From positions 1-64,000 of IMG/VR virus record IMGVR_UViG_3300030419_003599: DNA of 64,000 nucleotides; one strand, written 5' to 3'. Source of the stretch: a virus. The notes under the pieces are model-generated. The model was not told the DNA's origin and ran no database searches. It saw only the letters and a program-made list of their open reading frames with translations. The translations under genes and the position numbers were made by a program. How positions within the stretch are numbered: the stretch's first letter is position 1; the number at the start of each line of letters is the position of its first letter. Of this stretch, positions 1 through 47,400 are shown piece by piece.

Positions 1-3000
1 GGGTTTAGTTCAGAGTTCCAAGACATCCACACAGGCGAACCTATGGACCTCGCTTGGCGATTGCTCAAAGCACCACTTGACTTTGAATCTGTCCGTGATG
101 TAGGGGTTGTTGAAGAAGGGGGCTTTCCTTATCGGAGGTTTGAGGCTGATTTCATAGACCCTGAAACACAAGAACGGCTACCCGCCTTCGCTCGTCTGTC
201 CGATGATGGAGTGGGTGTAGGCCGTATTCAAGACCCTGACCCCGAATCTCTTCTAAGAAATAGGGCGTTCCACATGATACATCCTTATGGTGATAAAGGG
301 ATTTATCCATATTCTATCGGCACAGATAAAAACTTTAGAGGCCGAGGCTATCAAGAAGCCCTTTTGAATTTGATAATGCGTTTAGCCGAAGCAGAGGGAA
401 AAACATTCTACGAGCCACCTCAATCCTCCAAAACGGGTGATGGTAATATGTTCGCCCAAAGAATGCGTGAAAAATATGGTGATAAAGATGTTGAGGTAAT
501 AACGGGCGAACCAATGGACCTCTCTATGCGGTTGCTCAAAGGTAAGTTTGATTTAATACCAATGGAGGCTGCTAATGAATTATTGATGTTTCATGATGAC
601 CCTACAATCATAAGATGGCATAATGATAAATATGGATTAGGTTTGAGTGAAGAAGGTTTGTCCCAAGATGAAACGGATGAATTACTTAGTCATATAATAG
701 ATAGCGATACTGCATTTGAGCCTTCGGTCCCGGGTGGGATAAGTCATGCAGAAAATGTTGAACAATATGAAAAAGAGACAAGAAAACCCGCAAGACCTAT
801 GGGACTGAATATGCAATTAGGAGATGTTCCTGTCATTGACCCTACTAAGCCCGAAACTTGGAAAGACGGTCCCGGCACCACTTGGGTTGGGGGAAAACCT
901 ACAGTATCTCCGCAGATAACCCAACAACCATTTCCTTACGACTTTGATTACATTCACCAAGGCGAACCAATGGACCTCGTTTTCCGGTTGCTTAAAGCAC
1001 AACAAACACTCTATGCTTATGACCCTTCATTTATTGAAGAAGGCTTTCAACCCAATATTCAAAATGTAATTATTGCATCAAAGCCCGGTGCTAGAGATAT
1101 TAGTAACGAAGAGCAAAGTAAATTGCATGATGAGATGTTGAGGGATATTTCTGAATTAGATGGCTCTCATCGTATTAAGATAATAAGCGCTCGTGGGCGT
1201 AGTAATGAATGGGGTGACGAACATTCGTTTATGCTTACAAATGTCCCTGATGATATGATGCCCCATATTTTTTCATTGGCTGATAAATATGGTCAAGATT
1301 CTATATTACACTCACCAAAAGGAACAGCAGGAACACAATTTGTAGATAGTAGTGGTGAAGTAACTGGTGGTTTAGAAGAAGGTGGGTTTACTATAAAAAA
1401 GCCTGAAAACTATACTGAGTTTCCAACAGGGCAAAAATACGCATATGGTGATTATGTTACGGCGAGCGAACCAATGGACCTCGCTATGCGGTTGTTGAAA
1501 CTTGAATTAGCACCACCTATGACTCAAGGTGTTGAAGAGCAAGTACCAATGCAAGAAGATATACCTATGGTTGAAACTATGGATGAAGATGACTGTTGTG
1601 AAAAAGTTCGCGCATTTATTATTCAACAAAACCCGAATGTGCATGAATCTATTATTGAAAGGATTCGGAATATGCCGTGTGAAGAACTTCAATCTAATTT
1701 GAATTACAATGCAGTAGCAAACTTGGTTGGTTGCGGTGGCTTTAGCGAAGCGGACCAAATGAAATACGCAGGCGAGCCGATGGACATCGCTATGCGGTTG
1801 CTCAAAGAGGCTCGCCCTCATGCTCTCATACCTAATTTTGATTTACGACACATGCTTAATCCTAAATCTGATATACAAGAGCAATTGATAAGGCAACATG
1901 TTCCTCATGCTCTTTCCAATGCTGAATCAGCAACAGAAGTTTACAATCAACTTTTAGAAGAAGCCAAAATAAGAGAAGAAGAAACCGATTACTTCCCTTT
2001 ACCTCAAACTCAAATTGAAGATTACGGAGAGCAACACCCGCCTATTTTTCGTTACAACGCTACAAATGCGGTAACATATAGACCCGACTTTCAAGATATT
2101 CACACAGGCGAACCAATGGAAATCGCTATGCGGCTGCTCAAAGAAGAGGTTGATGACGAGGCTTTCAAACGGTCTGCTTACGGTTTAATGGATGAGGGAT
2201 GGGCTGACCATTTACCCGAAGATTTTGACCATGAAGGTTTTGATGCAGAAAACTACAATGAAATTATTGATAGAGAATATCCCACGGGTCAAAGTGGATA
2301 TAGCCCCGGAATAAAAGAATTACGAAGGTCGCTATACAACCGTTATGAAAGCCCCGAAGAAAATGAAAAGCGTTTTCGTGACTTAATGGATAACCCTACT
2401 CGTGAACCTATACTTGTCGTTAGAGATAAGAATGGAGAAGAGCATATTATTGCCGGCCATCATAGAATGGCGGCGAACATTGAGTCCAACAGACCACATC
2501 TTCCCGCTTTGATATTGGATATGGACAAGGATATTCAAACAGGCGAACCAATGGACATCGCTATGCGCTTCCTTAAGGCCCCATTTTACGAATACAGTAT
2601 GCCGACTTCCCAAATCACAGAAAACATTGTGCCTTTCGCCGAAGCAATGAATGAAGGGGAGGAGGATTGGCAATATATCCAGCCTAGAGCCCCAGATGCC
2701 CGAGCCCGAGAGCATTTGGCAGAACAAATGAAAGAGAGGAATATTGCTCAAACATCCCCTGCCTTGGGTCAGCCCATAATCCCCGGTGATGAGGACACTT
2801 TACATATCGGAAATCTCATTGCTGAATTGATGATGCGAGAAAATCCTGAAATCTTAGACCAATTGCCTCCCGGTGCTCGGGCCTCAATGCATTGGGGCAA
2901 TTTCCCAAAACCGAATATCATTTATCCATCAGAGCATTCCAAACAGCGAGTCCCATACCCCATGAAAGACTTGCATAGCGTCTTTTATCAGATACCGGGC

Positions 3001-3618
3001 GGAAAAGTATCACCCATTACAATACAGCCCACTCCCCCTTTCAGAGTGACCGAGCCCACTCAATTCATTCCTGCTGGTTCATTAGCAGAATGGCAGAAGG
3101 AGATGTTTGATGCTAGAAATCTGGAGCACGGACTGGAAACTCCAGCCCTGAGAGATTTACACTATCAGAGGCCCGAATTGGTGGAGGTGGCTGCTGCTGC
3201 ACCTGCTGCTCCGGCGGGAGCACTAGTCGCAACGGGCACAAGAGTACCTCCCGGATTGGAACACTTATTCAAAATCCCGCAGCAGGGACGCAGGGCAGGG
3301 CGGATAGTTTTTGCTGGCCCTCAGAGAGCCAGAAAATGGGCCAGCCCAGAGACAGGTTTTCCACACCAACTAAAGACGGTGAGTGAGTCTATGGCGAATA
3401 TGCAGCCAGAGCAGGCCAAGGCGTTCTACAGTGCACTATTACAGGCATGGATGGACAAAGGTATCTCCTTGGACGATTTGACAGGATACACTGGGAGAGG
3501 AGGACGGGACATGTCGGGGGTATCAGGATGGGAGGACGCTATTGCTGGACTCAAGAAGAAGAGTGAACCTATAGATATCGCTATGCAATTACTCAAAGTT
3601 GAACTTATGCGCAAATAA
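1..3618 (+). CDS. Multi-module 'polyvalent-like' protein with eight EPM tags (5' end outside window)
   Basis: The reading frame is open from base 1, so the gene starts upstream; the ATG at 43 lies inside the first tag and is probably not the true start. Eight copies of a 12-residue tag (GEPMDLAMRLLK type) divide it into modules. The module at about 70-504 has a GNAT-like motif A (FRGRGYQEALL). The module at 997-1464 resembles DUF3293 (KPGAR...SNEEQ, then an E-x-S-F strand and a YGQ motif). The module at 2143-2541 has a ParB-like core (PILVVRD followed by AGHHRMAAN). The others are unrecognised; the last (2578-3561) has an Ala/Pro-rich linker. The final tag sits at the extreme C-terminus. The architecture resembles phage polyvalent proteins, which combine several effector domains in one chain and are thought to enter the host with DNA. 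Domain calls are from motifs by eye; the function of the whole is inference. Confidence 0.75.
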   Translation, partial: GFSSEFQDIHTGEPMDLAWRLLKAPLDFESVRDVGVVEEGGFPYRRFEADFIDPETQERLPAFARLSDDGVGVGRIQDPDPESLLRNRAFHMIHPYGDKGIYPYSIGTDKNFRGRGYQEALLNLIMRLAEAEGKTFYEPPQSSKTGDGNMFAQRMREKYGDKDVEVITGEPMDLSMRLLKGKFDLIPMEAANELLMFHDDPTIIRWHNDKYGLGLSEEGLSQDETDELLSHIIDSDTAFEPSVPGGISHAENVEQYEKETRKPARPMGLNMQLGDVPVIDPTKPETWKDGPGTTWVGGKPTVSPQITQQPFPYDFDYIHQGEPMDLVFRLLKAQQTLYAYDPSFIEEGFQPNIQNVIIASKPGARDISNEEQSKLHDEMLRDISELDGSHRIKIISARGRSNEWGDEHSFMLTNVPDDMMPHIFSLADKYGQDSILHSPKGTAGTQFVDSSGEVTGGLEEGGFTIKKPENYTEFPTGQKYAYGDYVTASEPMDLAMRLLKLELAPPMTQGVEEQVPMQEDIPMVETMDEDDCCEKVRAFIIQQNPNVHESIIERIRNMPCEELQSNLNYNAVANLVGCGGFSEADQMKYAGEPMDIAMRLLKEARPHALIPNFDLRHMLNPKSDIQEQLIRQHVPHALSNAESATEVYNQLLEEAKIREEETDYFPLPQTQIEDYGEQHPPIFRYNATNAVTYRPDFQDIHTGEPMEIAMRLLKEEVDDEAFKRSAYGLMDEGWADHLPEDFDHEGFDAENYNEIIDREYPTGQSGYSPGIKELRRSLYNRYESPEENEKRFRDLMDNPTREPILVVRDKNGEEHIIAGHHRMAANIESNRPHLPALILDMDKDIQTGEPMDIAMRFLKAPFYEYSMPTSQITENIVPFAEAMNEGEEDWQYIQPRAPDARAREHLAEQMKERNIAQTSPALGQPIIPGDEDTLHIGNLIAELMMRENPEILDQLPPGARASMHWGNFPKPNIIYPSEHSKQRVPYPMKDLHSVFYQIPGGKVSPITIQPTPPFRVTEPTQFIPAGSLAEWQKEMFDARNLEHGLETPALRDLHYQRPELVEVAAAAPAAPAGALVATGTRVPPGLEHLFKIPQQGRRAGRIVFAGPQRARKWASPETGFPHQLKTVSESMANMQPEQAKAFYSALLQAWMDKGISLDDLTGYTGRGGRDMSGVSGWEDAIAGLKKKSEPIDIAMQLLKVELMRK
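34..3597 (+). repeat. Eight interspersed copies of the EPM peptide tag
   Basis: Tag copies lie at 34-69, 505-540, 961-996, 1465-1500, 1771-1806, 2107-2142, 2542-2577 and 3562-3597. Peptides are GEPMDLAWRLLK, GEPMDLSMRLLK, GEPMDLVFRLLK, SEPMDLAMRLLK, GEPMDIAMRLLK, GEPMEIAMRLLK, GEPMDIAMRFLK and SEPIDIAMQLLK. Spacing is irregular (102 to 340 residues), so this is not a tandem repeat but a delimiter between unrelated modules. Conserved hydrophobic positions (M, L/I, A, M/W/F, L, L) with D and R/K between them suggest an amphipathic helix. Confidence 0.9.
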
Positions 3619-3735: not shown

Positions 3736-4707
3736 TTGTCAGTAAATGCTTACTTAGAAAATGGTGTATTTTGCTGCACTTACTGCATCGGGTGTAACTT
3801 CTACACTTATGTTAAGAACCCTATTCGCACTATCGTGCCTCCGAGCCTGCGAATCTATGAAGTAGGGCCTAGAGATGGGCTACAGAACTCAAAAGTGCGA
3901 TTTTCAACATCTGAAAAGGTTGAACTTATTAAAATGCTAGAAAATGCCGGTATTTCTCATATTGAAATGGGTTCATTCGTAAATCCGGCTTTAGTCCCGG
4001 CCATGTCGGATACTGCGGCTGTATTTAGAGAAGTAATAGGCCAAATAGATGCTAAAACTGAGTTAGGCGCTCTTATTCCTAATGAAAAGGGCTTCAAAAC
4101 CGCAATTATGACTGGTTTAACCCATTTTAACATCTTTTTTTCTCCATCGGAGGCTTTTAACGCCCGAAATCTCGGAAAAACACGAAATGAGGCGTTTTTG
4201 CACTTCAAAAATGTATTGAAAGATATCCCTAAAGAAAATATCCGAGTTTATGTGTCATGTGCGTTTGGTTGCCCATTTGAAGGTGAAATTGACTCAAATC
4301 TACTGAAAAAAGCGATTCAAGACGCAAATGAACTAGGTTCAACTGTTGTTCTTTGTGATACAGTCGGAAAAGCGAACCCAAAAGCAGTAGAACGGGTTTT
4401 ACATCTAGTTGATTCAGGCATTAAAGCCGAAATTGCTTTACATTTACATGAAGGGGTTAGAGGACGCTCCGGTTTATTTGAAAATATAGAGACAGCGGTA
4501 GGACTTGGGGTGCATCAATTTGATACTAGTATTGGCGGTTTAGGTGGTTGCCCATTTATGCCGGGTTCTGGAGTGAATGTGGCTACCGAAGACCTTGTTG
4601 AATGGGCAAATGAGCGTGGGTTAGACACAGGAGTTTGCGAAAATGCTCTAGCGGAGGTCGCAGCATTTGTGGCAAGCCGCATTAGTCCTATGGAGGTGGC
4701 GCAATGA
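3736..4707 (+). CDS. mvaB: Hydroxymethylglutaryl-CoA lyase (HMG-CoA lyase)
   Basis: A DRE-TIM-type aldolase that splits HMG-CoA into acetoacetate and acetyl-CoA. The sequence shows the N-terminal active-site motif EVGPRDGLQN (about residues 42-51), the H-x-H metal ligands (ALHLHEG), and the family signature GGLGGCPFMPGSGVNVATED with the catalytic-loop cysteine. Length from GTG 3835 is 290 residues, close to the usual 300. The longest frame begins at TTG 3736 and adds 33 Cys-rich residues unlike the family N-terminus. GAGG lies only one base before this TTG, and the GTG has no ribosome-binding site, so the start is unsettled. The gene sits between tag-protein genes and its stop overlaps the next ATG. 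It looks complete and active; as a viral gene it would be auxiliary metabolism. In archaea HMG-CoA feeds isoprenoid lipid synthesis; in many bacteria the enzyme degrades leucine. Confidence 0.9.
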   Translation: MSVNAYLENGVFCCTYCIGCNFYTYVKNPIRTIVPPSLRIYEVGPRDGLQNSKVRFSTSEKVELIKMLENAGISHIEMGSFVNPALVPAMSDTAAVFREVIGQIDAKTELGALIPNEKGFKTAIMTGLTHFNIFFSPSEAFNARNLGKTRNEAFLHFKNVLKDIPKENIRVYVSCAFGCPFEGEIDSNLLKKAIQDANELGSTVVLCDTVGKANPKAVERVLHLVDSGIKAEIALHLHEGVRGRSGLFENIETAVGLGVHQFDTSIGGLGGCPFMPGSGVNVATEDLVEWANERGLDTGVCENALAEVAAFVASRISPMEVAQ

Positions 4708-4874
4708 TTGTAGATTTGATAATCGGACTATCTGTTGTTATGCTTGTTCTAGTGGTCTGGGTTACTTGGGAAATCTCTCAGTGGGAGACAGAAGTGAACC
4801 TAACAATGGAAGAAATAGAAGCAGTACATAATGACATGTGGCAAGGTTTGCACTTAAGCGGAAGAGATGATTGA
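4704..4874 (+). CDS. Small single-pass membrane protein (56 aa)
   Basis: ATG overlaps the lyase stop (ATGA) and is preceded by GGAGGTG, so translation is probably coupled to the lyase gene. Residues 2-22 (IVDLIIGLSVVMLVLVVWVTW in outline) form one strong transmembrane helix, followed by an acidic, Glu-rich tail of about 33 residues. No family is recognised. Tight coupling to the lyase could mean a shared role, but nothing in the sequence proves it. Confidence 0.75.
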   Translation: MIVDLIIGLSVVMLVLVVWVTWEISQWETEVNLTMEEIEAVHNDMWQGLHLSGRDD

Positions 4875-5133
4875 TATGGCTCAAGGATTTTGGTTATTTC
4901 GTATTACCATGAAACTTTTGGAAAAACTCTACATTTGGGTAGAATCTAAAATGAAGTATCCAAATGACCATACTATCCTAGGGATTTCTATTGACGAAGA
5001 CCTCCAAAAAATGAGCCGTAGAGAATTGTGTGCTTATATTGAAGAGAACACACCCGGAGAAGGCTCATTTTGGAGATTAGATAGCACCACTAAGATTCGT
5101 TTTGGGTGTCAAATGATGCGAAAGTTTGATTGA
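4867..5133 (+). CDS. Hypothetical protein (88 aa)
   Basis: Overlaps the preceding small membrane-protein gene by 8 bases and has GGAAGAG just upstream of ATG 4867; ATG 4876 is an alternative start. The N-terminal third is rich in aromatic and Leu residues (FWLFRITMKLLEKLYIW), possibly amphipathic. The remainder is a mixed, charged sequence with a single Cys pair too far apart for a zinc knuckle. It is last in the short lyase operon. No function is recognised. Confidence 0.6.
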   Translation: MIDMAQGFWLFRITMKLLEKLYIWVESKMKYPNDHTILGISIDEDLQKMSRRELCAYIEENTPGEGSFWRLDSTTKIRFGCQMMRKFD

Positions 5134-5667: not shown

Positions 5668-5806
5668 ACTTATCATCTGAAGGCCGCTCTTTGGGCTTTT
5701 GTCTAATTATTAGTTCATCTTCTATAGGATAGAGCATGCCAAATAAAGCCCCGAATAGAAATGCCCCTACCCAAAGTGCAGCATGGATGACGAGAGAGTA
5801 GTCCAT
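5657..5806 (-). CDS. Small membrane protein coupled to the GNAT gene (49 aa)
   Basis: Minus-strand frame starting at ATG 5806-5804, overlapping the stop of the upstream GNAT-tag gene as TAATG. It encodes MDYSLVIHAALWVGAFLFGA and continues through one transmembrane helix (about residues 5-25), then a charged tail rich in Lys, Glu and Asp. The exact stop-start overlap argues for a real, translationally coupled gene. Function unknown. Confidence 0.65.
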   Translation of the reverse strand: MDYSLVIHAALWVGAFLFGALFGMLYPIEDELIIRQKPKERPSDDKFKA

Positions 5807-7251
5807 TAACGGACCCCTACTGATTTTAGGGTCCCTCTCTCTTTGAAATGTCTTGCTCGGTTGGCATGAGGGTCTTCTTCAACAAGTGTATGCTGACGAG
5901 TATGAGAAATATCAGGGCCGCCTCGTCCATATATACCGCGTTTGCGCCTCTCCCGATTGAGGTCTTCTCGGTATTTGACCCTTTTAGGATTTGATTCATA
6001 CTCAGTATCGTATTCTACTTTATGTCGTAAAGCCTCTGGACTTGTGGCGTGTTTGAGAAGCCTAAAAGCAAGGTCCATTGGTTCGCTAGCCAAATGGTAA
6101 TCTGGGTCATAGTCCCAATCAGTAGGTTCATTGATTTGCTCTGTCGGCTTTTCTGGTTTTGGTCGTACATCTTCCCAGTAAGGGAGGCTTGCCGAAGGGA
6201 CCGGCCTGTTGGGATTCGGATACGGGTTTGGCGTCAATCTGGTTTGTCCTCGTGCGTGCTTCCACGGTTCTTTCCCAAGTTGGGGGGGAGTTAATGGGGG
6301 TTGTTTTAATTCCTCAGATATATGTTCGCTCCATGGTACAGTAGTAATATCAGGGCGTAATGAGCCCCATTTTTCAGGGAGATGGAAATGACTTATTGTA
6401 TCAAATAATGTGTCACCCTCTTCCTCACCTAATTCCATATTATGTAAAGGGCCGAGTTCTGCAAAATGAGGGATTTTACCTAATTTACGGCCCGCTGCAC
6501 TACGCAGCCCTTTCGGTATTAACTTCATGGCTCTTGCTGCTAACCCCTGACCTTTGTCTGTGCGCGCTGAACTCATAAGTGCCCCTTCTCTACCAAGTAT
6601 TTGTTGTCCTAATAATGTCCCTAACCCTTGGCCTTCATAGCGAGGGTCAATTTGAATATAACTGACATGGGGACCCGCCATACTAGCGCGACCTATTGGT
6701 ATCATGCCTTTAGGGGCGTATGCTTCTTCATGAGGCAACAAACCTGTGTCTGGGTCGTAGAATCTTCCAGATGCATTTAGACTAGAAGGCGTATAATCCC
6801 CGCGATAAAAAGAGCCCCCCCATGATTCGCTTGGGCTTACTGCTCCTTTTGGAGCCCAAAGGGCATATTGTTTCTCCCCAAATAAATCGGACAATATACC
6901 CTTCATGTATTCATCTCTCACATCAACATCATCATCATCTTCCAATTCATCCCAATTATCGTGATACCAATCATATATTCGTTTTAATTTTGATGTAGAA
7001 GGGTCTCTTGTCGTCAAATCATTAGAGAGGTTGTAGTAATCGGCGAGGGCATTCCATTGGGGTCGCTGTGTAATTAAAGATGTAAGATGGAAATCGCTCG
7101 GTTTTAAGCCTAAGAGGCGCTTTTTATTATCTTGCGGAGAGCCAGTATCTGGTTTTTCTACTGCATCGCCTAGCGGTTTGGGCATGGCTCCCCAATCACT
7201 AAGAGTGGTCTGCCGTGCCTTCAAAAAAGACCACGATTTATCTATGCCCAT
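5806..7251 (-). CDS. GNAT-domain protein carrying an EPM tag (481 aa)
   Basis: The central region (about residues 185-265) reads as a GNAT acetyltransferase: a strand VSYIQID followed by the acetyl-CoA loop RYEGQGLGTLLG (about 204-215) and a helix ending in LAARAMKL. The N-terminus, MGIDKSWSFLK, resembles the N-terminal tag form. A full tag, SEPMDLAFRLLK, lies at residues 389-400 (bases 6087-6052), followed by a basic tail of about 80 residues. Residues 100-110 are acidic (DELEDDDDVDV). The start is supported by GGTGAGG seven bases upstream, buried in a hairpin (7259-7278). It is the only large minus-strand gene here, and the acetyl acceptor is unknown. GNAT call fairly sure; role inferred. 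Confidence 0.75.
   Translation of the reverse strand: MGIDKSWSFLKARQTTLSDWGAMPKPLGDAVEKPDTGSPQDNKKRLLGLKPSDFHLTSLITQRPQWNALADYYNLSNDLTTRDPSTSKLKRIYDWYHDNWDELEDDDDVDVRDEYMKGILSDLFGEKQYALWAPKGAVSPSESWGGSFYRGDYTPSSLNASGRFYDPDTGLLPHEEAYAPKGMIPIGRASMAGPHVSYIQIDPRYEGQGLGTLLGQQILGREGALMSSARTDKGQGLAARAMKLIPKGLRSAAGRKLGKIPHFAELGPLHNMELGEEEGDTLFDTISHFHLPEKWGSLRPDITTVPWSEHISEELKQPPLTPPQLGKEPWKHARGQTRLTPNPYPNPNRPVPSASLPYWEDVRPKPEKPTEQINEPTDWDYDPDYHLASEPMDLAFRLLKHATSPEALRHKVEYDTEYESNPKRVKYREDLNRERRKRGIYGRGGPDISHTRQHTLVEEDPHANRARHFKERGTLKSVGVR
6052..6087 (-). repeat. EPM tag in the GNAT protein (SEPMDLAFRLLK)
   Basis: Exact tag peptide between the GNAT region and a basic C-terminal tail, on the opposite strand to the other copies. 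This shows the tag is selected at the protein level and is not a strand-specific DNA element. Confidence 0.9.
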
Positions 7252-9347: not shown

Positions 9348-10064
9348 ATGTCAGCACTTGCTGGTTCAGCCCTTGTTGGGGGGATGGTATGGGCAAGAGA
9401 ATTGTGGAATTATTGGAAACCTCGTAAAGTCGGAGTTTATGGTCCACAATTAGTAGGGAAGACTACTCTTGATAGATTCATGACCACTCCGGGCGAAATG
9501 GAACCAATAGCGGAAGAAGAACGCACAACCCATTTCCGCATGATGGGTCGCTATGTTTTACCTCGCCCTACGCGTAAGCGCGTGCGTTGGAAGGGAGAGA
9601 AACGAGTTGTATATAGTTCTGATATAGGAGGGGATGAAAGATTCTGGAGCCTGTGGATTGATGATATGGTCCATAGGCAAGTAGAAGCGGTTGTATTCAT
9701 GTTTGATGATAGAGCAGCGAAAGGTGGAGATGAAGCAATCCAAGCAGTTGGCGGTTTCAAATATCTTGTAGACGCTCTCATCCATCGCCAATACCGCTAT
9801 CGTTCTCTTAAAACATGGTGGAAAGGAAAAAAGTATGCGCCTAAAATGGTTATGTTAGTTGCCAATAAAGCCGATAAATGGTGGGATGACGATGCCTCAG
9901 TATTATGGCAACAAGATAGAATTGGGGAGCACAAGGTGTTTGACCCATTTCGCCCTGACCTTATTCGTTTACAGAAGGCTGGCATCCCCACAAGGCGTGG
10001 TTTTATGGCCACTCGTATAGGCTGGCAAGTAGAAAATACTATGATAGACCTATTGAGTGGGTGA
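9348..10064 (+). CDS. Ras/Arf-superfamily-like small GTPase (238 aa)
   Basis: Three nucleotide-binding motifs are visible in order: P-loop GPQLVGKT (residues 32-39), a D-x-G-G switch II motif DIGG (92-95) followed by an aromatic cluster, and the guanine-specificity motif NKAD (173-176) after the strand MVMLVA. A candidate switch I Thr lies at 60-61. The D-x-G-G form is typical of Arf/SRPR-beta-type GTPases. Residues 3-16 are hydrophobic (ALAGSALVGGMVWA) and could anchor it to a membrane. No G5 motif is obvious and the basic insert RPTRKRVRWKGEKR before switch II is unusual. It follows two membrane-protein genes and may act with them at the host membrane. GTP binding is well supported; role unknown. 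Confidence 0.75.
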   Translation: MSALAGSALVGGMVWARELWNYWKPRKVGVYGPQLVGKTTLDRFMTTPGEMEPIAEEERTTHFRMMGRYVLPRPTRKRVRWKGEKRVVYSSDIGGDERFWSLWIDDMVHRQVEAVVFMFDDRAAKGGDEAIQAVGGFKYLVDALIHRQYRYRSLKTWWKGKKYAPKMVMLVANKADKWWDDDASVLWQQDRIGEHKVFDPFRPDLIRLQKAGIPTRRGFMATRIGWQVENTMIDLLSG

Positions 10065-10068
10065 TACC

Positions 10069-10104
10069 ATGAGCCCGCTTGACGCCGCTTGGACAATTTT
10101 GAAA
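10069..10104 (+). repeat. N-terminal tag variant (MSPLDAAWTILK)
   Basis: N-terminal form of the tag: start Met, then S-P-L-D-A-A-W-x-I-L-K. P, hydrophobic, D, A, W, L and K positions align with EPMDLAWRLLK. Confidence 0.65.
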
Positions 10105-10425
10105 TCTCGCCCTGTTTCATCTTCTGGAAAGCAGTATTCTCCTCAAGAATTGCAGCAATTGCGGGCTTTCGTTAATGCTAATATAGAAAGTCCTGACCCT
10201 AATTTACAGGCTCAAGCGCAGCAAATACTTGAAGAACTCACTACAGCCATGTCTTTTGCGGGCGGTCGTACCTCATTCAACACTCCTTCAGAGCCCATTG
10301 TCCCCGGCGCTGGGCCAGTTGTCCGTGGGGCCGGAGGCCCTGCTGCATCAGTAGGCGTTCGCCCGCCTTTACCTCCAGAACCTTCAGAAGAGGATGAGGA
10401 CGATGATAAGGCATTGCCCTCTTGA
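10069..10425 (+). CDS. Tagged Pro/acidic protein (118 aa)
   Basis: ATG 10069 is chosen over GTG 10057 because the protein then begins directly with the tag form MSPLDAAWTILK, matching MKPIDSAWAILK in the gene at 17928. Residues about 25-65 are helical (QELQQLRAFVNANIES...); the C-terminal half is Gly/Pro-rich with an acidic run (PSEEDEDDDK). It overlaps nothing functional downstream and is followed by the AbrB-like gene. Unknown function; tag and composition suggest a virion-associated or scaffold-like protein. Confidence 0.65.
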   Translation: MSPLDAAWTILKSRPVSSSGKQYSPQELQQLRAFVNANIESPDPNLQAQAQQILEELTTAMSFAGGRTSFNTPSEPIVPGAGPVVRGAGGPAASVGVRPPLPPEPSEEDEDDDKALPS

Positions 10426-15831: not shown

Positions 15832-17931
15832 ATGAGCCAAATCATTGTCCTTAACCCTACAGAGACTTTACTCAAGTCATTTTTCGCTAATGTAGTTGAG
15901 CCTTCAATTATTCTCAAAGGCGATGGTGTCCTTTACATGGGACCCGAGGGTAACAAAATGATGGGTTTCCCTCCCCAACATATGTTCAATATGGACCCAA
16001 ATCAACCAGACCACCCTATGTGGTCATGGAATCCTCATACTGGAGAACCTACCGAAGGTGGTATGCATCCGATTGATGGAGTAGTAGCCCATTTGCAGCA
16101 GTATCTTGATAAAATGGGTATTAGGGCAGATGCTCGTTCCATAGTTCAAGATTCAATTGACGCCTTTAATCGTAAGCATATGTCTGATAATCATCATTTA
16201 CCGGCATTTGATTCCCCTGAATGGCGTAAGTTAGTTATCGGCCCTCATCCTACTAATGTGCCGGGTCATGAAATAGCAACTCGCGGTCATGACGGTAAGT
16301 TATTTACTCATTATGGTAATCGTGGCGGCTCAATTGGTTTATTCCCTGAGAGCGGAGCAGTCCCATTTTTCAGCGAACTTAATGATATTCTCACAGATAT
16401 GGGTTTGCATCAAGCAGAGGGAGAATTGGAGTTCGCTAAATATCCCAATATATCAGCCCAGCATTTGTCCCCTAATGTTTATCGTACTAAAGCGAATGAA
16501 TTAGCGGCGCACGGTTTAGTGCCGGGGCATATTCTTGAACAACACGCCCCAGAAGGAATGATGTTTGATGGAGCGCATGGGGCGCGACATACTTGGGAAG
16601 TGATGCATCATTTACCAGCGGCTATGTTCATGGGTACAGGTTATGCGCCTAGAGCCAATAGTGCAACAGTGCGTGAAGCAGAAGGTAATATCGCCGCCGC
16701 TCTTCAAAATATAGACCCTAAACAAATACCAAATCATCCAATTACTCTCCATGATGGGACTAAAACTACCTTCGCCGAGGCTATATCTAATCCTGCTACT
16801 CGCAGTACTTTAATTCAAGATATGGCGCGCAGTCCTGCTTTACAATTCATGTTTGCTGGAGCGGGAAGCCCTGCCACACGAACTAAGACCCGCACAATTA
16901 TGGGGCCTCTTCTTGATGTAGAGGGTTTTGATGTTCACCGTGGTCATACTGATACTGGTACTAGAAAAAGAGGACGCAGCCCTCATTCTTATGCTGTAAA
17001 TGTCGCTGCCGCTGCCGCCGCTCATGGTCCATGGGAAGCAGACCCTACTCGTTCAGCAATGGCTGATAATTCGCATGGTTTACCTGAAGGTGTAGACCAC
17101 AATGAAATCGGCAGGCGTAGAGAAATTATTGAAGGCATGGGAGACATGATGGCTAGAGCCCATGGGCATACTGAACGATGGACTCCAGATTGGGATAATC
17201 TCCCCACTGATATGCCCGCATCTCGCGCAATTGGTAATTTAGGTCAAGTAATGCATCAAGAAGTGCCTGAACATTTCATTAATCGTTTCTATACAGACAT
17301 GAATGCCGCTCCTACAAGAGATATACCTATCCCGGGCATGGGTGCTGGTCCAACTGCTCAAAGAGAGCAAACCCCGCCTGAACCTTCTATACCTGAAGTT
17401 AGAACTCAACCAGCAGCACCTGCCGCTCCTGCCGCTCAACCAATAGCCCCCCGAATTGAGCCCCGGGGACTTACTCCTGAATTACAAGCCGCTCGTAGGC
17501 AGATAGGGGCGGCCCAAGGAGTAGAAGGGGTGAGGCAAACGGCTAGAGAAATGGGAATGCCACCGCTTCCTGAAAACCCGGCGCATGTGAGCCGCTTCCA
17601 GCATTCTTTCGGTGACCCACACCAAACTCTTCTTGACCAATGGATGCGCTCTAATGATTCTGTAGAAATGTTAGACCGCATTGAAAAGGCAATGGAAGAA
17701 CTACAACTCAAAGATGCCCAAAGAGATGTAGCAGTTTTGAAACACCTTCCTAATCGCCAAAATCTCAATATCAATATTGAAGGCGATGTTGCTTTAATGG
17801 CCAATAAATTGGGGCTCACTAAGCACGATATACGAAGTCTTGCCATTTCCAAAGGAGATTGGCACCGTGTGGCTGAAGTATTTGATGTCCCGGCGCCTGT
17901 TGTAGGGGCAGTAAAGGTGGTGTTCTCATGA
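15832..17931 (+). CDS. Large His/Met/Pro-rich protein of unknown function (699 aa)
   Basis: GGAG eight bases upstream supports ATG 15832. No known domain is recognised. It is rich in His, Met and Pro in the first 400 residues (for example HTWEVMHHLPAAMFMGTGY). An Ala/Pro linker (PAAPAAPAAQPIAP) precedes a helical C-terminal part (LDRIEKAMEELQLKDAQRD). A segment with HTGEPTEGGMHPIDGVVAHL loosely recalls the tag but is not counted. Composition resembles the N-terminal part of the 1,863-residue protein at 24969. It overlaps the next, double-tagged gene by 4 bases. A head-associated role is likely from position; details unknown. Confidence 0.6.
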   Translation: MSQIIVLNPTETLLKSFFANVVEPSIILKGDGVLYMGPEGNKMMGFPPQHMFNMDPNQPDHPMWSWNPHTGEPTEGGMHPIDGVVAHLQQYLDKMGIRADARSIVQDSIDAFNRKHMSDNHHLPAFDSPEWRKLVIGPHPTNVPGHEIATRGHDGKLFTHYGNRGGSIGLFPESGAVPFFSELNDILTDMGLHQAEGELEFAKYPNISAQHLSPNVYRTKANELAAHGLVPGHILEQHAPEGMMFDGAHGARHTWEVMHHLPAAMFMGTGYAPRANSATVREAEGNIAAALQNIDPKQIPNHPITLHDGTKTTFAEAISNPATRSTLIQDMARSPALQFMFAGAGSPATRTKTRTIMGPLLDVEGFDVHRGHTDTGTRKRGRSPHSYAVNVAAAAAAHGPWEADPTRSAMADNSHGLPEGVDHNEIGRRREIIEGMGDMMARAHGHTERWTPDWDNLPTDMPASRAIGNLGQVMHQEVPEHFINRFYTDMNAAPTRDIPIPGMGAGPTAQREQTPPEPSIPEVRTQPAAPAAPAAQPIAPRIEPRGLTPELQAARRQIGAAQGVEGVRQTAREMGMPPLPENPAHVSRFQHSFGDPHQTLLDQWMRSNDSVEMLDRIEKAMEELQLKDAQRDVAVLKHLPNRQNLNINIEGDVALMANKLGLTKHDIRSLAISKGDWHRVAEVFDVPAPVVGAVKVVFS

Positions 17932-17963
17932 AGCCAATAGATTCTGCTTGGGCGATTCTTAAG
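17928..17963 (+). repeat. N-terminal tag variant (MKPIDSAWAILK)
   Basis: Twelve residues from the start Met, aligned with MSPLDAAWTILK of the gene at 10069. Confidence 0.65.
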
Positions 17964-18815
17964 AATCCGGCTTTAGAAACAATGACACCTGCCGCTGTAG
18001 ATGCCGCAGGACCCGGTTTTTTCCTTGGACCACAAGGAATACAAGGGCAGAGTGGTCCTTTTATGTTCAATATGGGGGGTAGAGGGGCTAATCGCCCTAG
18101 TACAGCCAGACTCCTTCATGGTTTAGCCACAGGTCAAGCACCAAGAGGGACTAAGCGCGCACTTGCAGGAAGAGCGGCTGGGACTGGTTTAGGTCTGGTC
18201 AATGCTTTATTGGCTGCAGAAAGAGCACAGCGTGGTGGAGATATTGAAAGTGCTCTTGGTGCCGCTTATGCTGGCTATCAAGTACCTAAACAAAGTATTA
18301 CTGGTGCCGCAGAAGGGGAATGGAGCCATAAACCAATGTTGGATGCCCATGGGCGACCTATGCGAAAACCCAGATTAGATGAAGAAGGTAATCCAATATT
18401 AGACAAAACAGGGCGACCTATAATGGACCCAATGTTAGAGGAAGAACAAACACCCGGTGGCGCAATCGGAGGTCAGATGGAGGCCGCTCAACTTGGTCGT
18501 TCTTTTTACGATAATATAGTACAAGAAGAAGACCCTATTAATTTCCCTAGCGCTGCATCCGAATATGGCAACCTTCCTCCCCCTAAAGAAACATCTCTAC
18601 AAGCAGGGGTCCCAAATACAGCACCTACACTTGGTCAACTAAGAGCCTCAGCGACAGACACAATGCCACAAGGAGACCCTAATAGAATAACAAGTTGGAC
18701 AGGTACAGCAGTAGACCCAGCAGCGGACGCAACGCAGAATGTGGGGTTAGATGTATTCACAAACAGTGAACCGATGGACTTGGCTTTCCGTATGTTAAAG
18801 GGGGCTATGAGATGA
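17928..18815 (+). CDS. Double-tagged protein immediately before TerL (295 aa)
   Basis: Begins MKPIDSAWAILK (N-terminal tag form) and ends SEPMDLAFRMLK plus GAMR, so it has a tag at each end. Between them are Gly/Ala/Pro-rich segments and a repeated pattern (AHGRPMRKP, then TGRPIMDP). Its ATG overlaps the preceding stop (ATGA) and its stop overlaps the TerL ATG. No enzymatic motif is seen. A tag at both termini would suit a bridging or scaffold protein that contacts the same partner twice, or a carrier; inference. Confidence 0.65.
   Translation: MKPIDSAWAILKNPALETMTPAAVDAAGPGFFLGPQGIQGQSGPFMFNMGGRGANRPSTARLLHGLATGQAPRGTKRALAGRAAGTGLGLVNALLAAERAQRGGDIESALGAAYAGYQVPKQSITGAAEGEWSHKPMLDAHGRPMRKPRLDEEGNPILDKTGRPIMDPMLEEEQTPGGAIGGQMEAAQLGRSFYDNIVQEEDPINFPSAASEYGNLPPPKETSLQAGVPNTAPTLGQLRASATDTMPQGDPNRITSWTGTAVDPAADATQNVGLDVFTNSEPMDLAFRMLKGAMR
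18765..18800 (+). repeat. C-terminal EPM tag (SEPMDLAFRMLK)
   Basis: Tag five codons from the stop of the double-tagged protein. Confidence 0.85.
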
Positions 18816-20278
18816 GTGATGTTGAGAAACTCATTGAAGAAATGGACCGAGAAATGGCGGCCAAATCATTTGAGTTCTTTTTTACTGATATACTCGGGTA
18901 TGATTTCAATGACCATCACCGCGAGTGGGTAGATTGTTTGGACAATCACCGCTACTATGTAGTTAAAGCGGCTCGTGACCACGGTAAAAGCACTTTATTC
19001 ATGTCTTATGCTCTATGGATAGCGGCATTTAATCCCGGTACTCACATTATGATATTCAGTCACTCTCTTGAGCAGACTCTTGAGCATATGCGTATGATTC
19101 GTAGCCATATTGACGCTGAACCCATCCTACAATACCTCAAGCCACAAGGTATGCCATGGGCTAAATCCTACATGGAGTTCACAAACGGCAGCCGTTTGAT
19201 GGCTAAGTCGGTCGGCGGGGCAACTCGTGGTTTCCACCCTGATGTTGTAGTATGCGATGATATTCTTTGGGGTTCAACTGCTGGAGAGTTGGCTAGAACC
19301 GCTGATTGGTTTTATTCAGTTCTACTCCCTGTTCTTCACCACACTGGCCGTCTTATGATGGTAGGGACTCCATTTTCATATAATGACCTTTACACTGAAT
19401 TAGAATCCAAAGATGCTTTTGAAGTTGGAACTTTTCCTGCTATGGATTCTGATGGTATAGCATTATGGCCTAACCGTTGGGATGAAGAAGCACTAATGCA
19501 AAGGCGTATGTCAATGCCTGCTATCCAATTCGCCCGTGAGTATCTCTGTGAGCCTATTCACGATGTAGCAAGTATGTTTCCAATGGATATTTTGGAACAG
19601 GCGCGTGATGAAAATCTACGATTACTTGACCGGGCCGAAAGTGAATATGATGAAGAAGGTGAAAATATCGGCGTTTTTGGGCAACACTTTGTCGGTTGGG
19701 ACCCTGCTATTGCTTCTGATAAAAATGCAGACTATACAGCCATAGTAACAATGCGGACATTAGATGACGGCATTAAACAAGTAGTCCATGCCATCCACGA
19801 AAAGGGTTTGAACTCCGAAGCACAGAAACGCCATATCATTTTACTCAATAGTCGTTTCCAACCTGACCTTATTGAATTAGAAGGCAATAATTTTCAAAGA
19901 ATGTTTGAGACCGAATTGAGAGGTATGGATATACCAATTCGTACTTTTATGACAACTAGAGCACGAAAAGAGAGTTTATTCATGTCTCTTCTTCTCGCTT
20001 TTGAGCAGGGGCAAATTAGAACACCTTATGGGGATGAGAAGAGCAAAATATTTACTCATAAATTAGAGACTGAATTGAATAGATTTGGTATGACTAAACA
20101 AGGTAAGTTAGAGAGCGTGGGTGTGCATGACGACCTTGCTATGGGGCTTGCGTTAGCCAATTGGGCTACTAAAGAGTTCAAGGGCTCTGTTGTGATGTTA
20201 GATGATTTTCTTCCCGGGTTTGGGGAATGGGTCCAAGAAGAATTAGGTGGAGGAAGCCACCCATGGTATGTGATGTAA
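18812..20278 (+). CDS. terL: Terminase large subunit (DNA-packaging ATPase/nuclease)
   Basis: Packages DNA into the prohead through the portal and cuts it. Walker A ARDHGKST (residues 54-61), Walker B VVVCDD (145-150) and a coupling motif MMVGTPFSYND (about 182-192) mark the ATPase. The RNase H-like nuclease shows GWDPAIASDKNADYTAIV (about 294-311), an acidic ELEGNN segment, and VHDDLAMG near the C-terminus (about 437). Length 488 is normal. ATG overlaps the previous stop. All key residues are present, so it should be active. Flanked by the double-tagged protein and a tagged zinc protein. Confidence 0.95.
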   Translation: MSDVEKLIEEMDREMAAKSFEFFFTDILGYDFNDHHREWVDCLDNHRYYVVKAARDHGKSTLFMSYALWIAAFNPGTHIMIFSHSLEQTLEHMRMIRSHIDAEPILQYLKPQGMPWAKSYMEFTNGSRLMAKSVGGATRGFHPDVVVCDDILWGSTAGELARTADWFYSVLLPVLHHTGRLMMVGTPFSYNDLYTELESKDAFEVGTFPAMDSDGIALWPNRWDEEALMQRRMSMPAIQFAREYLCEPIHDVASMFPMDILEQARDENLRLLDRAESEYDEEGENIGVFGQHFVGWDPAIASDKNADYTAIVTMRTLDDGIKQVVHAIHEKGLNSEAQKRHIILLNSRFQPDLIELEGNNFQRMFETELRGMDIPIRTFMTTRARKESLFMSLLLAFEQGQIRTPYGDEKSKIFTHKLETELNRFGMTKQGKLESVGVHDDLAMGLALANWATKEFKGSVVMLDDFLPGFGEWVQEELGGGSHPWYVM

Positions 20279-20279
20279 G

Positions 20280-20600
20280 ATGACTGATGCCTTAACTTGC
20301 CATTATTGCGGCCAGCGATTTAACCACCCAATGCAGCGTTTGATTCACGAAGAGCGAATGCATGAGGGCGGAGGAGGCTCCGAGAAAGACGCTATGTTCC
20401 AGACAGGTGAGCCTATGAATCTCGCTTGGCGTTTATTGAAAGAAAAAGAAGATGCCCCTAATTATCGTTGCCCGGCTGATGACCCGAAACAAAGTTGCGG
20501 GACTTGTAAGCATTGGGTCAAAAAAAGTGATGAAATAGGCACTTGTTCCCTCTTTAATTTCCAGTGCAATGCCAAATGCACTTGCGATGCTTGGAGTTGA
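20280..20600 (+). CDS. C2H2 zinc finger, EPM tag and Cys cluster in one small protein (106 aa)
   Basis: Starts one base after the TerL stop. Residues 7-28 form a classical C2H2 finger (C7, C10, H23, H28). The tag GEPMNLAWRLLK is at 43-54. The C-terminus holds seven Cys in the order C-x8-C-x2-C, then TCSLFNFQCNAKCTCDAW, a pattern seen in small zinc or iron-sulfur proteins of tailed viruses. The finger and the Cys cluster may contact DNA or the packaging motor, with the tag as the link to a common partner. Function inferred from layout only. Confidence 0.75.
   Translation: MTDALTCHYCGQRFNHPMQRLIHEERMHEGGGGSEKDAMFQTGEPMNLAWRLLKEKEDAPNYRCPADDPKQSCGTCKHWVKKSDEIGTCSLFNFQCNAKCTCDAWS
20406..20441 (+). 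repeat. EPM tag between two metal-binding modules (GEPMNLAWRLLK)
   Basis: Tag with Asn at the usual Asp/Glu position, between the C2H2 finger and the Cys cluster. Confidence 0.9.
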
Positions 20601-31966: not shown

Positions 31967-33103
31967 ATGGCACGAGATTATATCCGAACAGTAACTGACT
32001 TAGAGCGCTATTATTATGGCGCCGGGAACGCAATGGGCTACTCCTACAGTGGCTCTGAACTATTGAAGGCTGATGCTCCACTAATGAGCACAACTGCTGG
32101 TACTTACCAAGCAATTTATGGCCGCAAGGTTTGGTCGCAACTAAACCAAGAGTTCAATGCTTTTAGCATTCTACCTAAGAAGCCTTGGGACCGAAGTGGA
32201 TGGCGTATCATTACTGCCAAGCCTTCCTTCACTAAGGGCGGCGGTGTTGCAGAGAATGCTACACTACCTGACACAACCAAGCCAACATTCCTACATGTTG
32301 CAGCCAAGCCAAAGACCGTTGCTCACACATTTGACATGAGTGAAGTAGCAATCTTCCTAGCAGACAAAGATGACGGTATGGGTGACATCCGCCAAGTCCT
32401 CAAAGAGGAAATGGGCAAGCATCACGCAGACCATGTAAATCGTATGCTACTTGAAGATGTAGATACTCCAGCAGGTAACGATTACGAATCATTGGACCGT
32501 ATTACATCTGACCCTGACAACATGACAACTGGTACTACGCATGTAAGCGCAACTACTGACCACGATATGTACTCTATTACTCGTGATGGTAGTGTAGGCT
32601 TCCACAGCGCAGAAGTTAGTGTTGATTCAAGCAGTACTAACCGCAACCTCAGTCTTGACCACCTAGATACCATCTTCCAGCAAGTTTGGACTCGTGGTGG
32701 TAATCCAAAGGTCATGATGACTGGATATGATACACTAATGAGAATCCAGCAACTACTACAGACCCAGCAGAGGTTCATGGAAGAGAAGAGAGTCGTACCT
32801 ACCTTCAACGGTGTAAAGGGTGTCCCCGGTATAGAAGCCGGATTCGTGGTCGCTACTTACAACGGTGTTCCAATTATTCCAACCAAAGACATGCAAACAG
32901 ACGGCATCAGTCGTATCTACTTCCTTGATACTGACTATGTATGGTTTAGCACTGCAATACCAACTCAATACTATGAAAGCGGAATTGAGACCGGAGACCC
33001 ATTCGGAATCAACAGGCTTGGCCAAGAAGGACTCTACCGAACCATGGGTGAAGTATGGTGCTCTTTCTTCGGAGGACAAGGGAGTGTGCGTGACCTACAG
33101 TGA
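31967..33103 (+). CDS. Major capsid protein (HK97-fold, inferred)
   Basis: Forms the capsid shell. Length 378, position directly after the protease-scaffold and a C-terminal half with alternating strands (PKVMMTGYDTLMRIQQLL; NGVPIIPTKDM; RIYFLDTDYVWF; GEVWCSFFG) agree with HK97-type capsid proteins. The N-terminus (KADAPLMSTTAGTYQAIYGR) and the long E-loop-like region are plausible. No tag is present. Codon use is biased to CTA, AAG, GAC and TTC, as in the gene before, consistent with high expression. Fold is inferred from context and pattern, not a structural match. Confidence 0.88.
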   Translation: MARDYIRTVTDLERYYYGAGNAMGYSYSGSELLKADAPLMSTTAGTYQAIYGRKVWSQLNQEFNAFSILPKKPWDRSGWRIITAKPSFTKGGGVAENATLPDTTKPTFLHVAAKPKTVAHTFDMSEVAIFLADKDDGMGDIRQVLKEEMGKHHADHVNRMLLEDVDTPAGNDYESLDRITSDPDNMTTGTTHVSATTDHDMYSITRDGSVGFHSAEVSVDSSSTNRNLSLDHLDTIFQQVWTRGGNPKVMMTGYDTLMRIQQLLQTQQRFMEEKRVVPTFNGVKGVPGIEAGFVVATYNGVPIIPTKDMQTDGISRIYFLDTDYVWFSTAIPTQYYESGIETGDPFGINRLGQEGLYRTMGEVWCSFFGGQGSVRDLQ

Positions 33104-43223: not shown

Positions 43224-44416
43224 TGGGGGTTCCAATTCGTTTAATTCGCACAGACGGAGAGAAGATTCCTCTGATGGCAGAAAGCATCACAATGACAGTA
43301 GATAGGTCAGTGGGCTCTATGCCTCTTCCATTCTCAGGTAGTCAGCGTGTGGGTTTGGATTTCAATAGGGCTAAAGCGGCTATAGTTATTACAGGTGTAC
43401 TTACTGATGACGGAAGAGACAAGACACAAACAAGTTCAGCAAGTTTTTGCTTTATTGATTTCGCGAAGACTAAGTTTAACAGGACTTGGTATAGCGCAGC
43501 CTCTTTGGTATTAAATGCAGTTCCTATTTACAATAAAGATATCATAATACTTGATGCACTGGGGAATGAGCATACTTTTCGGCTCACTAATCAAGCCGCT
43601 CTTGCTACAAGTGCTTCAGATATTGCTTCAACGGGGCCGGGTAATACGATAGTGTCTGTCCCAATCGGTAATGCTGCTTCTGCTGCTAATGTGGCCAGCG
43701 CTCTAGTATTAGGCATTAATAGCCTTTCTCATCCTAGTGGTGTCAGTGCTGGTAGTCAGCCGGGTTTTTGGTTCAACGCATCAGCGGAAGCATCTGAAAG
43801 AGACCGTACTCAAGGTAATTGTAAAGTGAAAATTAAACAATCTACTCACGGCCCTCATGGGGGCAACGGTCCGACTTTTCGGGGATGGGGAGGTAGTTGG
43901 TTTGTTGCGACAGCAAGCCATCGTTCTGCTTTTGATACGCCTGCTTATACGGTATGGGAAAAAGGTACGGTCGCAGTTGGTCCTAAATCTGCTGGTGATA
44001 AAGCAATGGACCTTTACGGTTCTCTCAATAATATGAATAACAGTAGTGCTGAATGGAAGGAAAATTTACTGCCCGGTGATTGGTTTGATACATATCAAGA
44101 AAATGTAGATGATGATGACGCTGGGACTGGAGATTATATCATTGGTATCCAGATTCCATATAATTCAATGGTTAAAGGTTCAAACGGAGATTATGTGCAA
44201 CGCAATTTTTTCATGCCCACAGGGAAAAATAAGACTAAAAATAATAAGGGTTCAGAATCCAATAATTCGCCGGTAGATGTAGATTTCCGCCCATGGAACT
44301 TTGGTGGTACTAAAGGCATTAAAGGCACAGTCCAACAATTTGTTATCACTTATGATGCGGGCGAAACTGTCTATAATTATCAATTGACATTCTTGCCTGT
44401 TGATATAATTATTTGA
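43223..44416 (+). CDS. Distal tail-like protein (397 aa)
   Basis: ATG 43223 overlaps the tape measure stop. The N-terminus (PIRLIRTDGEKIPLMAESIT) and the C-terminal strands (QQFVITYDAGETVYNYQLTF) are those of beta-sandwich tail proteins encoded just after the tape measure. The middle is Ser/Gly/Asn-rich. Probably caps the tail tube and carries the adhesion apparatus (Dit-like). Fold not confirmed. Confidence 0.6.
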   Translation: MGVPIRLIRTDGEKIPLMAESITMTVDRSVGSMPLPFSGSQRVGLDFNRAKAAIVITGVLTDDGRDKTQTSSASFCFIDFAKTKFNRTWYSAASLVLNAVPIYNKDIIILDALGNEHTFRLTNQAALATSASDIASTGPGNTIVSVPIGNAASAANVASALVLGINSLSHPSGVSAGSQPGFWFNASAEASERDRTQGNCKVKIKQSTHGPHGGNGPTFRGWGGSWFVATASHRSAFDTPAYTVWEKGTVAVGPKSAGDKAMDLYGSLNNMNNSSAEWKENLLPGDWFDTYQENVDDDDAGTGDYIIGIQIPYNSMVKGSNGDYVQRNFFMPTGKNKTKNNKGSESNNSPVDVDFRPWNFGGTKGIKGTVQQFVITYDAGETVYNYQLTFLPVDIII

Positions 44417-44427
44417 GGTGTTACAAA

Positions 44428-47400
44428 TTGACAGTAGTTGGTAGAAGCAGTCATGCGCTTTTACTCAATGGAGTTAGCGATGGTGTAGTTGTGCCATTAG
44501 CCGATTTTACTGGTTCAGATTTGAAATTGCGCGAAGCCTCTTCTTCCTTACCTACTCTAGGTTCTCCGGTACACGGAGTTAAGACTAGTAGCCATAACTC
44601 CCTTAAGACTCTAACAATAGAAGCATGGGTTCGCCCTGATTGTGGAGGAGTTGTAGTTTCTAAAGCGGAAACATTTGAATTAAAAGTGGGGCAAGTGGGG
44701 GAGCCGGGGCCAGCGGTATTTACATTATTTATGAGTAATACAGAAGGCCCGCAAATTATAGAATTAAGCACAGCATACCTAGATGCAACTCCACGATGGG
44801 TAGGAACTACATACCCTCGCCACGGGTCAGATTTACACGCTTCGTATAATAGTAATATTTCCGGTGTTAATGATGCTACTTCTCTCAATTTTTCTCATAG
44901 AGAATTATTGCATATAGTAGCCACCCTTCGTGGTAATATAATATCCTTATTCATTAATGGTTCTTTAGCGGTCCAAGAAGTATTACCGGAAAGCGGTTAC
45001 CGAGTAAAAATGAGCCCCGGTGATTTTGAAATCGGCGGCACAGGCGGTGAGTTCAGAGGGGCTATTGAAGCGATACATATCGCTAATTCTTTCAATTCCC
45101 AAATGTTAGTAGGACATGGGCCGATACCACTCCCTACTACACTAGGATTATGGAGATTTGAAGAACCGGCAGATGTCCATCCTACCATTTATCAAAGCGG
45201 GACTTTTAGTGCAGGTCCTAGTGTCAAGACAATTACAATAACCGCTGCTAGCGCTCAATCTATTATTGAAGCAATAACTGGAAATACTTACAATTCTGCT
45301 AGCCCGTCTGTAGATTTAACGGCTTCTCCCTATTCTAATGGTAATTACAAGGTAGTAGATTATGTTTCTAGCCCCGGCACTGGGAATACTATCGCTATAC
45401 CCCATACTCCGTATAACATTATGTTCAATGCGGATGCAGTTAATCCTCTTACTAAGAAGCCTAACCAAAAGCCACCTGAACGCCTGCGCTTACTATCAGT
45501 AAATGGGGCAACAGGAGTGCTTGGGGTAGAGAGCATCCATCTTGATTTCACAATAGCGGGGGCGAGAAGAGGAGTACTTTGTGATAGAACTACCAATGTA
45601 GATGACCACTTTGTCCTTTTATCTGGAGATTTGTTGTTAGACTCAGGGACAGGTAAGCCGTATCAACCTCCTCATTATGCTTCACAAGCCATTGACCGTA
45701 CTGGACAAATGGTAATTGATGAAAGTGGTAACGATATGCATGGGCTCATCTATGCGTCTAGTATGGCTACTACAGCCAATACGACCGACAATCCGTTTGC
45801 AGCAGTATGGCCTGCTGCTCTTGATACCGGTTTCCAGATAGGGCATACTGGTCGCCACGCTCTTTCTGCGGTAGATGGGCACCATTACTTACGGCAACTC
45901 CCTCTTGCTAACGAAGAAATTGTACATCAAAGTATTGACGGAACCGCTGATATTACTGAAATATATTATGATTCTAATTATAGAAATCTCAAAGACTCTT
46001 TACCTCCTAATAGTAGAGTAGATATTTTCCGTGATACTCTTAAATCCCAAGTCATGTATGTTCGCAATGAAGGCATAGCATTCCAAATGGTAGAAAACGG
46101 GATGGCAGGTATTGATGATGCTCAGCGTAAAATGTTGGCAATAGGAGGCTCTGGTACCCAAAACCATGCTACTACCAATGTATTTGATTACCAACCATTT
46201 CTACTCAAAAATCCGCTAGAAGGAGGGGTGAGCAATGATGATACTGCATTTAGGCGACATCATCTCCGACCAATTGAAACTAGCCGCGTAGCAATTCTTA
46301 GTGTACCTACACTAGGTACTACTCATAATCTCGCTCCTTTTGTAGAAATACACTATAATGCAGTAGATGTAACCGGCGCTAGTGCTGGTCTCACAGTAGG
46401 TAATGTAGTTAGTGTAAGCATCACTAGTGGGGGAAGTGGTTATTCGGCAGGCACTGCCGCTACTACAGGTGGCACAGGCACAGGCTGCACAGTGACTTAT
46501 ACTGTTTCAGCAGGGGCAATTAATGCTGTCACGGCTATTGCCACTAAAGGGACTGATTATACTGTCGGAGATATATTGACTGTATCTGGTGGAGGGGGGA
46601 ATGCCACCTTAACTGTCACTTCAGTAGGCGGTCCTTGTTTAATGGTAGAGAAAACCGTTCCTTCTGGCGAAGTTGTATTATCTACAGGGCCGACTGTTAG
46701 AGTATTAGATGTAATAGCGGCTGACCTCGCCGATGCAGCCAAAGATACTACTCTTTATTCTCCCGGGGGCATTATCCGTCTTGACACAACTGAGGCCACT
46801 GGTAACTTCCCTGCTGGTGTTACTCTGGAAACTCTATTTGCAGCAGACCCTCATGAGGGTATTGACCATGAGGATATTTTAGATGAAAGTCTCAGTCCGG
46901 CTAACTATACCCCGCTACACTCAAGCGATTTACCTAATGCCAATCCTACATCTGTTGATGCTGAGCATTCCCTTACCCAACAAGATGCTGTATTCAACCG
47001 ATTAGTAATGAATAATAATAACGAAGACCTCATTGACCAATTAACTATTACTGATAATTATTTCAAACGCAACCCGAGCACAGTTAATTCGGGCGTAGGC
47101 GCATACGATATTGGTAATGTTTCAGAATCTACTCATTTATTTGAGTCATATGATATCATCGGCGCTTTCGCAGACAAAGGTAAACGGAAAGGGATTACCT
47201 TCCTTATCCATCCTACTAATAGAAGTAGAACAAATCAATTGAGTAAAGTGGCTTCAACTACTACTCATGCCCAAGAAACTAATACTGTTTCAGTACAATA
47301 TCTAATGAGTCGCGCTCGCGCCCAATCTTTTTCCGATACAGATGGAGATGAAAGGCAATTCACACTAACTTGTGTGGGTCTTATGGGAGATGTCGCATCC

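Follow-up and report, generated by a model that had tools for sequence, protein, structure and literature searches.

A predicted HMG-CoA lyase in the late gene block of magrovirus-type archaeal viruses, and a small membrane protein often encoded beside it

The stretch of DNA analysed here, bases 1-64000 of a 108,650-base IMG/VR record (hereafter the window), contains a gene that, in our favoured reading, probably codes for a working HMG-CoA lyase from an old lineage of magroviruses; the enzyme would drain host HMG-CoA late in infection, sometimes with a small membrane protein as partner. HMG-CoA lyase cleaves its substrate to give acetyl-CoA and acetoacetate. In archaea, HMG-CoA serves as precursor of the isoprenoid ether lipids; it also arises in leucine breakdown. 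Marine group II archaea abound in surface seawater, and none of their viruses is in culture. A viral enzyme conserved at the point where archaeal lipid synthesis begins would offer a concrete, testable route of host rewiring, for which the linked membrane protein would be a specific handle.

The gene lies in an intact frame of 323 codons (3736-4707, + strand). Its product scored 258.5 bits against the NCBIfam model NF004283/PRK05692 for hydroxymethylglutaryl-CoA lyase (curated cut-off 246, E 7e-77) and 126 bits against Pfam PF00682 (cut-off 29). The original prediction of a complete HMG-CoA lyase gene is borne out by the uninterrupted frame and by these scores, both above the curated cut-offs. 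Its coordinates hold for the frame and less well for the start: the first ~33 codons align with no homologue, and relatives begin only a few residues ahead of the motif EVGPRDGLQ, so that translation more likely starts at the GTG at position 3835 and the protein is probably 290 aa long (Table 1). The base composition of the gene (GC 0.425, GC3 0.31) is like that of the remaining genes. No family for a viral HMG-CoA lyase was found in PHROGs.

Table 1. Features of the window discussed in the text.
Feature	Position	Strand	Remarks
Long frame	1..3618	+	Flanks the lyase, outside the finding; eight GEPMDLAMRLLK-like repeats between apparently unrelated domains
HMG-CoA lyase, 290 aa	3835..4707	+	Probable GTG start; frame open back to TTG 3736, extension unconserved
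56-aa protein, one predicted membrane span	4704..4874	+	ATGA overlap with the lyase stop codon; family found beside the lyase in relatives
88-aa protein	4867..5133	+	IDEDxQxMSRxELC ... FWxLDSTxKIR; overlaps the membrane-protein gene; small conserved family
Terminase large subunit	18812..20278	+	Marker for finding relatives and measuring lyase position
Portal	21966		Late block
Maturation protease	30579		Late block
Major capsid protein	31967..33103	+	Puts the lyase in the late block

Late genes (terminase, portal, maturation protease, capsid) are mostly on the + strand of the first 64 kb of the record, and replication genes (TFB, thermosome, ERCC4 nuclease, PolB, clamp-loader ATPase) are on the - strand at 64-104 kb; Pfam gave no confirmation of a sliding clamp. 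The lyase gene stands early in the late block, in agreement with the viral structural region first proposed for it, and the presence of TFB, thermosome and PolB substantiates the archaeal-virus setting that had been raised conditionally. The record combines the features that mark magroviruses: PolB, clamp loader, TFB, chaperonin and head genes, in two opposed gene blocks. From this gene content and two-block plan, we assign the virus to the magrovirus-type archaeal tailed viruses (Magrovirales); it very probably infects marine archaea. In the tail region, positions 44413-60993 form a single frame of 5526 residues, which presumably encodes a very large tail or fibre protein.

We compared these results with the published record. 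The original prediction knew of no established role for this enzyme in tailed viruses. The enzyme had in fact been reported in magroviruses, as HMGCL in a list of auxiliary genes (Xu et al. 2023, PMC10160649) and as HMG-CoA lyase in the ICTV profile of the Aoguangviridae (2023, PMC10768690), although neither report presents experimental evidence for it; in that sense alone, the statement of no established role still stands. The reported gene (Aoguangviridae, Magrovirales) agrees with ours in enzyme name, kind of virus and two-block plan. Unlike the window virus, the accounts are silent on a small membrane partner in the portions available to us (PMC10768690, PMC10160649), and no description of a lyase-linked small membrane protein was found in the open-licence full texts searched. 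As far as the searched literature shows, the linkage between the lyase and its partner is therefore what is new here, the enzyme itself being already on record.

A search of 23 virus records found no HMG-CoA synthase or reductase, with positive control searches, and the lyase would thus act on the host pool. During late infection, the viral enzyme would split host HMG-CoA into acetyl-CoA and acetoacetate. Such a drain could slow isoprenoid lipid synthesis in the host and return carbon to acetyl-CoA, the lipid aim having the lesser support. The lipid-precursor argument made in the original prediction is plausible, and tetraether-lipid genes have been reported in Poseidoniales. A different aim, which we regard as possible but distinctly less probable, would be to boost energy supply and leucine catabolism in a protein-eating host, yielding more acetyl-CoA rather than less lipid. 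Xu et al. place HMGCL under leucine degradation (PMC10160649), and functions for breaking down protein and fatty acids are plentiful in marine group II genomes (PMC6336850), but no further enzyme of the leucine pathway was noticed in the neighbourhood of the lyase. As the same reaction serves both ends, sequence cannot separate the lipid from the leucine reading.

Whether the reaction is that of an HMG-CoA lyase was judged from the active site and the fold. Signature residues were mapped on an alignment with the human enzyme (PDB 2cw6), and are given below as window/human positions, the former numbered on the 290-aa protein. The window lyase carries R13/R41, D14/D42, E44/E72, S47/S75, D175/D204, H203/H233, H205/H235, C239/C266, N248/N275 and E252/E279. 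R41, D42, E72, D204, H233, H235 and N275 are catalytic and metal-binding residues of HMG-CoA lyase. Across 71 viral sequences, the equivalents of these seven and of C266 were invariant; the latter, the unvarying cysteine of the glycine loop (GGLGGCP; GGLGGCPF), is C239 of the window. The assertion that all signature residues are present is thus upheld on this alignment, with a single exception: Glu takes the place of the Asp that follows HxH (human D236), and an insertion of ~3 residues comes next. Loss of this Asp and a short insertion at the site are typical of the viral clade, in which human V125 is also replaced by Asn; every virus has Val in place of human S201.

An AlphaFold2 model built from the viral alignment gave a confident barrel (mean pLDDT 91.7, pTM 0.91). 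The best PDB match of this predicted (beta/alpha)8 barrel was human HMG-CoA lyase (TM ~0.9, rmsd ~2 A), and the solved HMG-CoA lyases were the closest folds, far ahead of synthases and aldolases; the human enzyme outranked every other enzyme type of the fold. The viral protein shares with cellular HMG-CoA lyases (human 2cw6, B. subtilis 1ydo, P. aeruginosa 2ftp) the fold, the metal ligands, the catalytic Arg, Asp and His and the loop Cys. It differs from them in its identity (39% or less), in its separate tree branch and, for the viral clade, in the missing Asp of HxHD and the insertion at that site. The only other clear match in a viral structure library was the HMGL-like protein of Klosneuvirus KNV1, an unrelated giant virus of eukaryotes, which has the same fold (TM 0.88) and 29% identity with the window lyase. 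The viral-specific replacement of D236 with the insertion after HxH, the change of S201 to Val and that of V125 to Asn could point to a divergent member acting on another substrate, such as a different 3-hydroxyacyl-CoA or a malyl- or citramalyl-type compound. A changed substrate is possible on account of the HxHD and S201 replacements, but an enzyme of this other kind seems unlikely given the invariance of the HMG-CoA lyase mechanism residues, the loop Cys included, and the lead of HMG-CoA lyases over synthases and aldolases among the nearest folds.

In the lyase tree, which leaves out a misread frame (L035) and two other rows, a branch with SH-aLRT 100 separated all 51 viral sequences from 30 cellular ones. 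The cellular sequences had been gathered with window-derived peptides and were mostly bacterial, with one archaeal row, from a Haloferax plasmid. The phylogeny proposed at the outset thus supports a single viral lyase clade apart from the cellular sequences sampled, within this mostly bacterial range. A genome scan with window-derived peptides returned bacterial loci alone. The nearest copy to the window lyase (G001/L144) is 56-57% identical to it. Matches at 34-36% came from Acinetobacter and faecal phage records, and the faecal copy grouped with cellular sequences in a first tree that included the misread row L035. Across 16 close viral lyase pairs, dN/dS was 0.06-0.19, indicating purifying selection on the viral lyase.

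To place the gene among related viruses, 80 related contigs were found through their terminase, and 50 records were searched whole. Absence from all related viruses had been named as a result that would count against the gene; an HMGL gene was present in 22 of the 50. The question of whether relatives carry it at the same place was likewise answered: 21 of these 22 (G017 if read as circular) have it on the terminase strand, ~12-16 kb ahead of that gene. In the remaining record (G048), it is found next to the chaperonin gene, at the opposite end of the late block. Searching viral contigs with one lyase sequence gave no match, which reflects a limit of sensitivity, since a scan of the whole viral collection with an alignment query recovered 161 stretches encoding a lyase relative. 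Among the 80 of these that were kept, 19 have the lyase between terminase and portal. The lyase is therefore confined to the late block, not to one spot within it. Because several relatives of 95-102 kb, near full length, lack the gene, it is accessory rather than essential.

The 56-aa protein encoded after the lyase has one strong hydrophobic stretch and belongs to a family with a conserved tail, W...G-L/M/H-R/H, in which the Trp after the span and the tail Gly are invariant among relatives. This family was found in 10 of 22 lyase-positive records vs none of 28 lyase-negative ones (Fisher p 6e-5, uncorrected for relatedness). When the count was restricted to records from about 65 kb upwards, the figures were 5 of 11 vs 0 of 9 (p 0.04). 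All 10 partners lie on the lyase strand within 300 bases of it. A partner-based scan, whose query alignment was derived from lyase loci and hence favours their kin, recovered 24 loci, with the lyase within 6 kb in 20 and within 10 bases in 11. The pair varies in arrangement: the partner follows the lyase in the window and four other loci (L144, L173, L175, L176) and precedes it in the others. Within the late block, the pair is at the end in L200, L208, L210 and L223 and at the front in the window. No recognisable partner was found in the flank searched at 54 of 81 lyase loci (window included), and four records have a partner without a lyase, so the link is frequent, not obligatory. From these gene positions, we infer that the small membrane-protein gene, often beside the lyase, has moved together with it. 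In partner lineages, including the window virus, the overlapping genes suggest that the lyase is probably made together with the single-span protein, which might anchor the enzyme at the membrane or control it there.

A bolder proposal would make the lyase and the single-span protein a mobile two-gene cassette acting at the host membrane as a late lipid-shutoff system, possibly coupled to lysis. We hold this to be improbable; if true, it would describe a dedicated viral lipid-shutoff system, not a generic auxiliary metabolic gene. In three records without a lyase (L242, L245, L247), a member of the partner family is found near position 6000, after the last tail gene and before a small zinc-ribbon protein. 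A lysis-related role of the family at that site is conceivable, as speculation. The 88-aa protein was considered as a third cassette member and rejected: the order lyase, membrane protein, 88-aa protein recurs in two relatives, but 9 of the 16 loci of this family (L260-L275; 82-93 aa, no Pfam match) have no lyase and 7 have one. It is an accessory gene of these viruses, with or without lyase.

The record ends with 77 bases (L004 4574-4650) that exactly repeat window positions 1465-1541, inside the first long frame. The pattern resembles an assembly-graph overlap. A circular or terminally redundant genome is probable, and the repeat region may exist in another version, represented by bases 1-1464. 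The repeat makes the assembly ambiguous upstream, within the repeat-rich frame, but an assembly chimera at 3.6-5.2 kb, which had been named as grounds for doubt, or cellular contamination is extremely improbable, as the ambiguity stops 2.2 kb ahead of the lyase, composition is uniform, and independent contigs show this gene and its neighbours again, in a gene order common to relatives.

Besides its repeats in the first long frame, a PMDLAMRLLK-like ten-residue motif is present in one or two copies, in many cases close to the N-terminus, in several further late proteins of this virus and of related ones. The strict pattern matched 10 times in window proteins vs 0 in 200 shuffles. No lyase has this tag, and the idea that the lyase bears the tag of its neighbours was rejected. 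The motif could be a capsid-targeting or protease-processing tag. Its other sites are at 5806-7251 (- strand), 10057-10425, 17928-18815 and 20280-20600 of the window and at L004 3575-4648.
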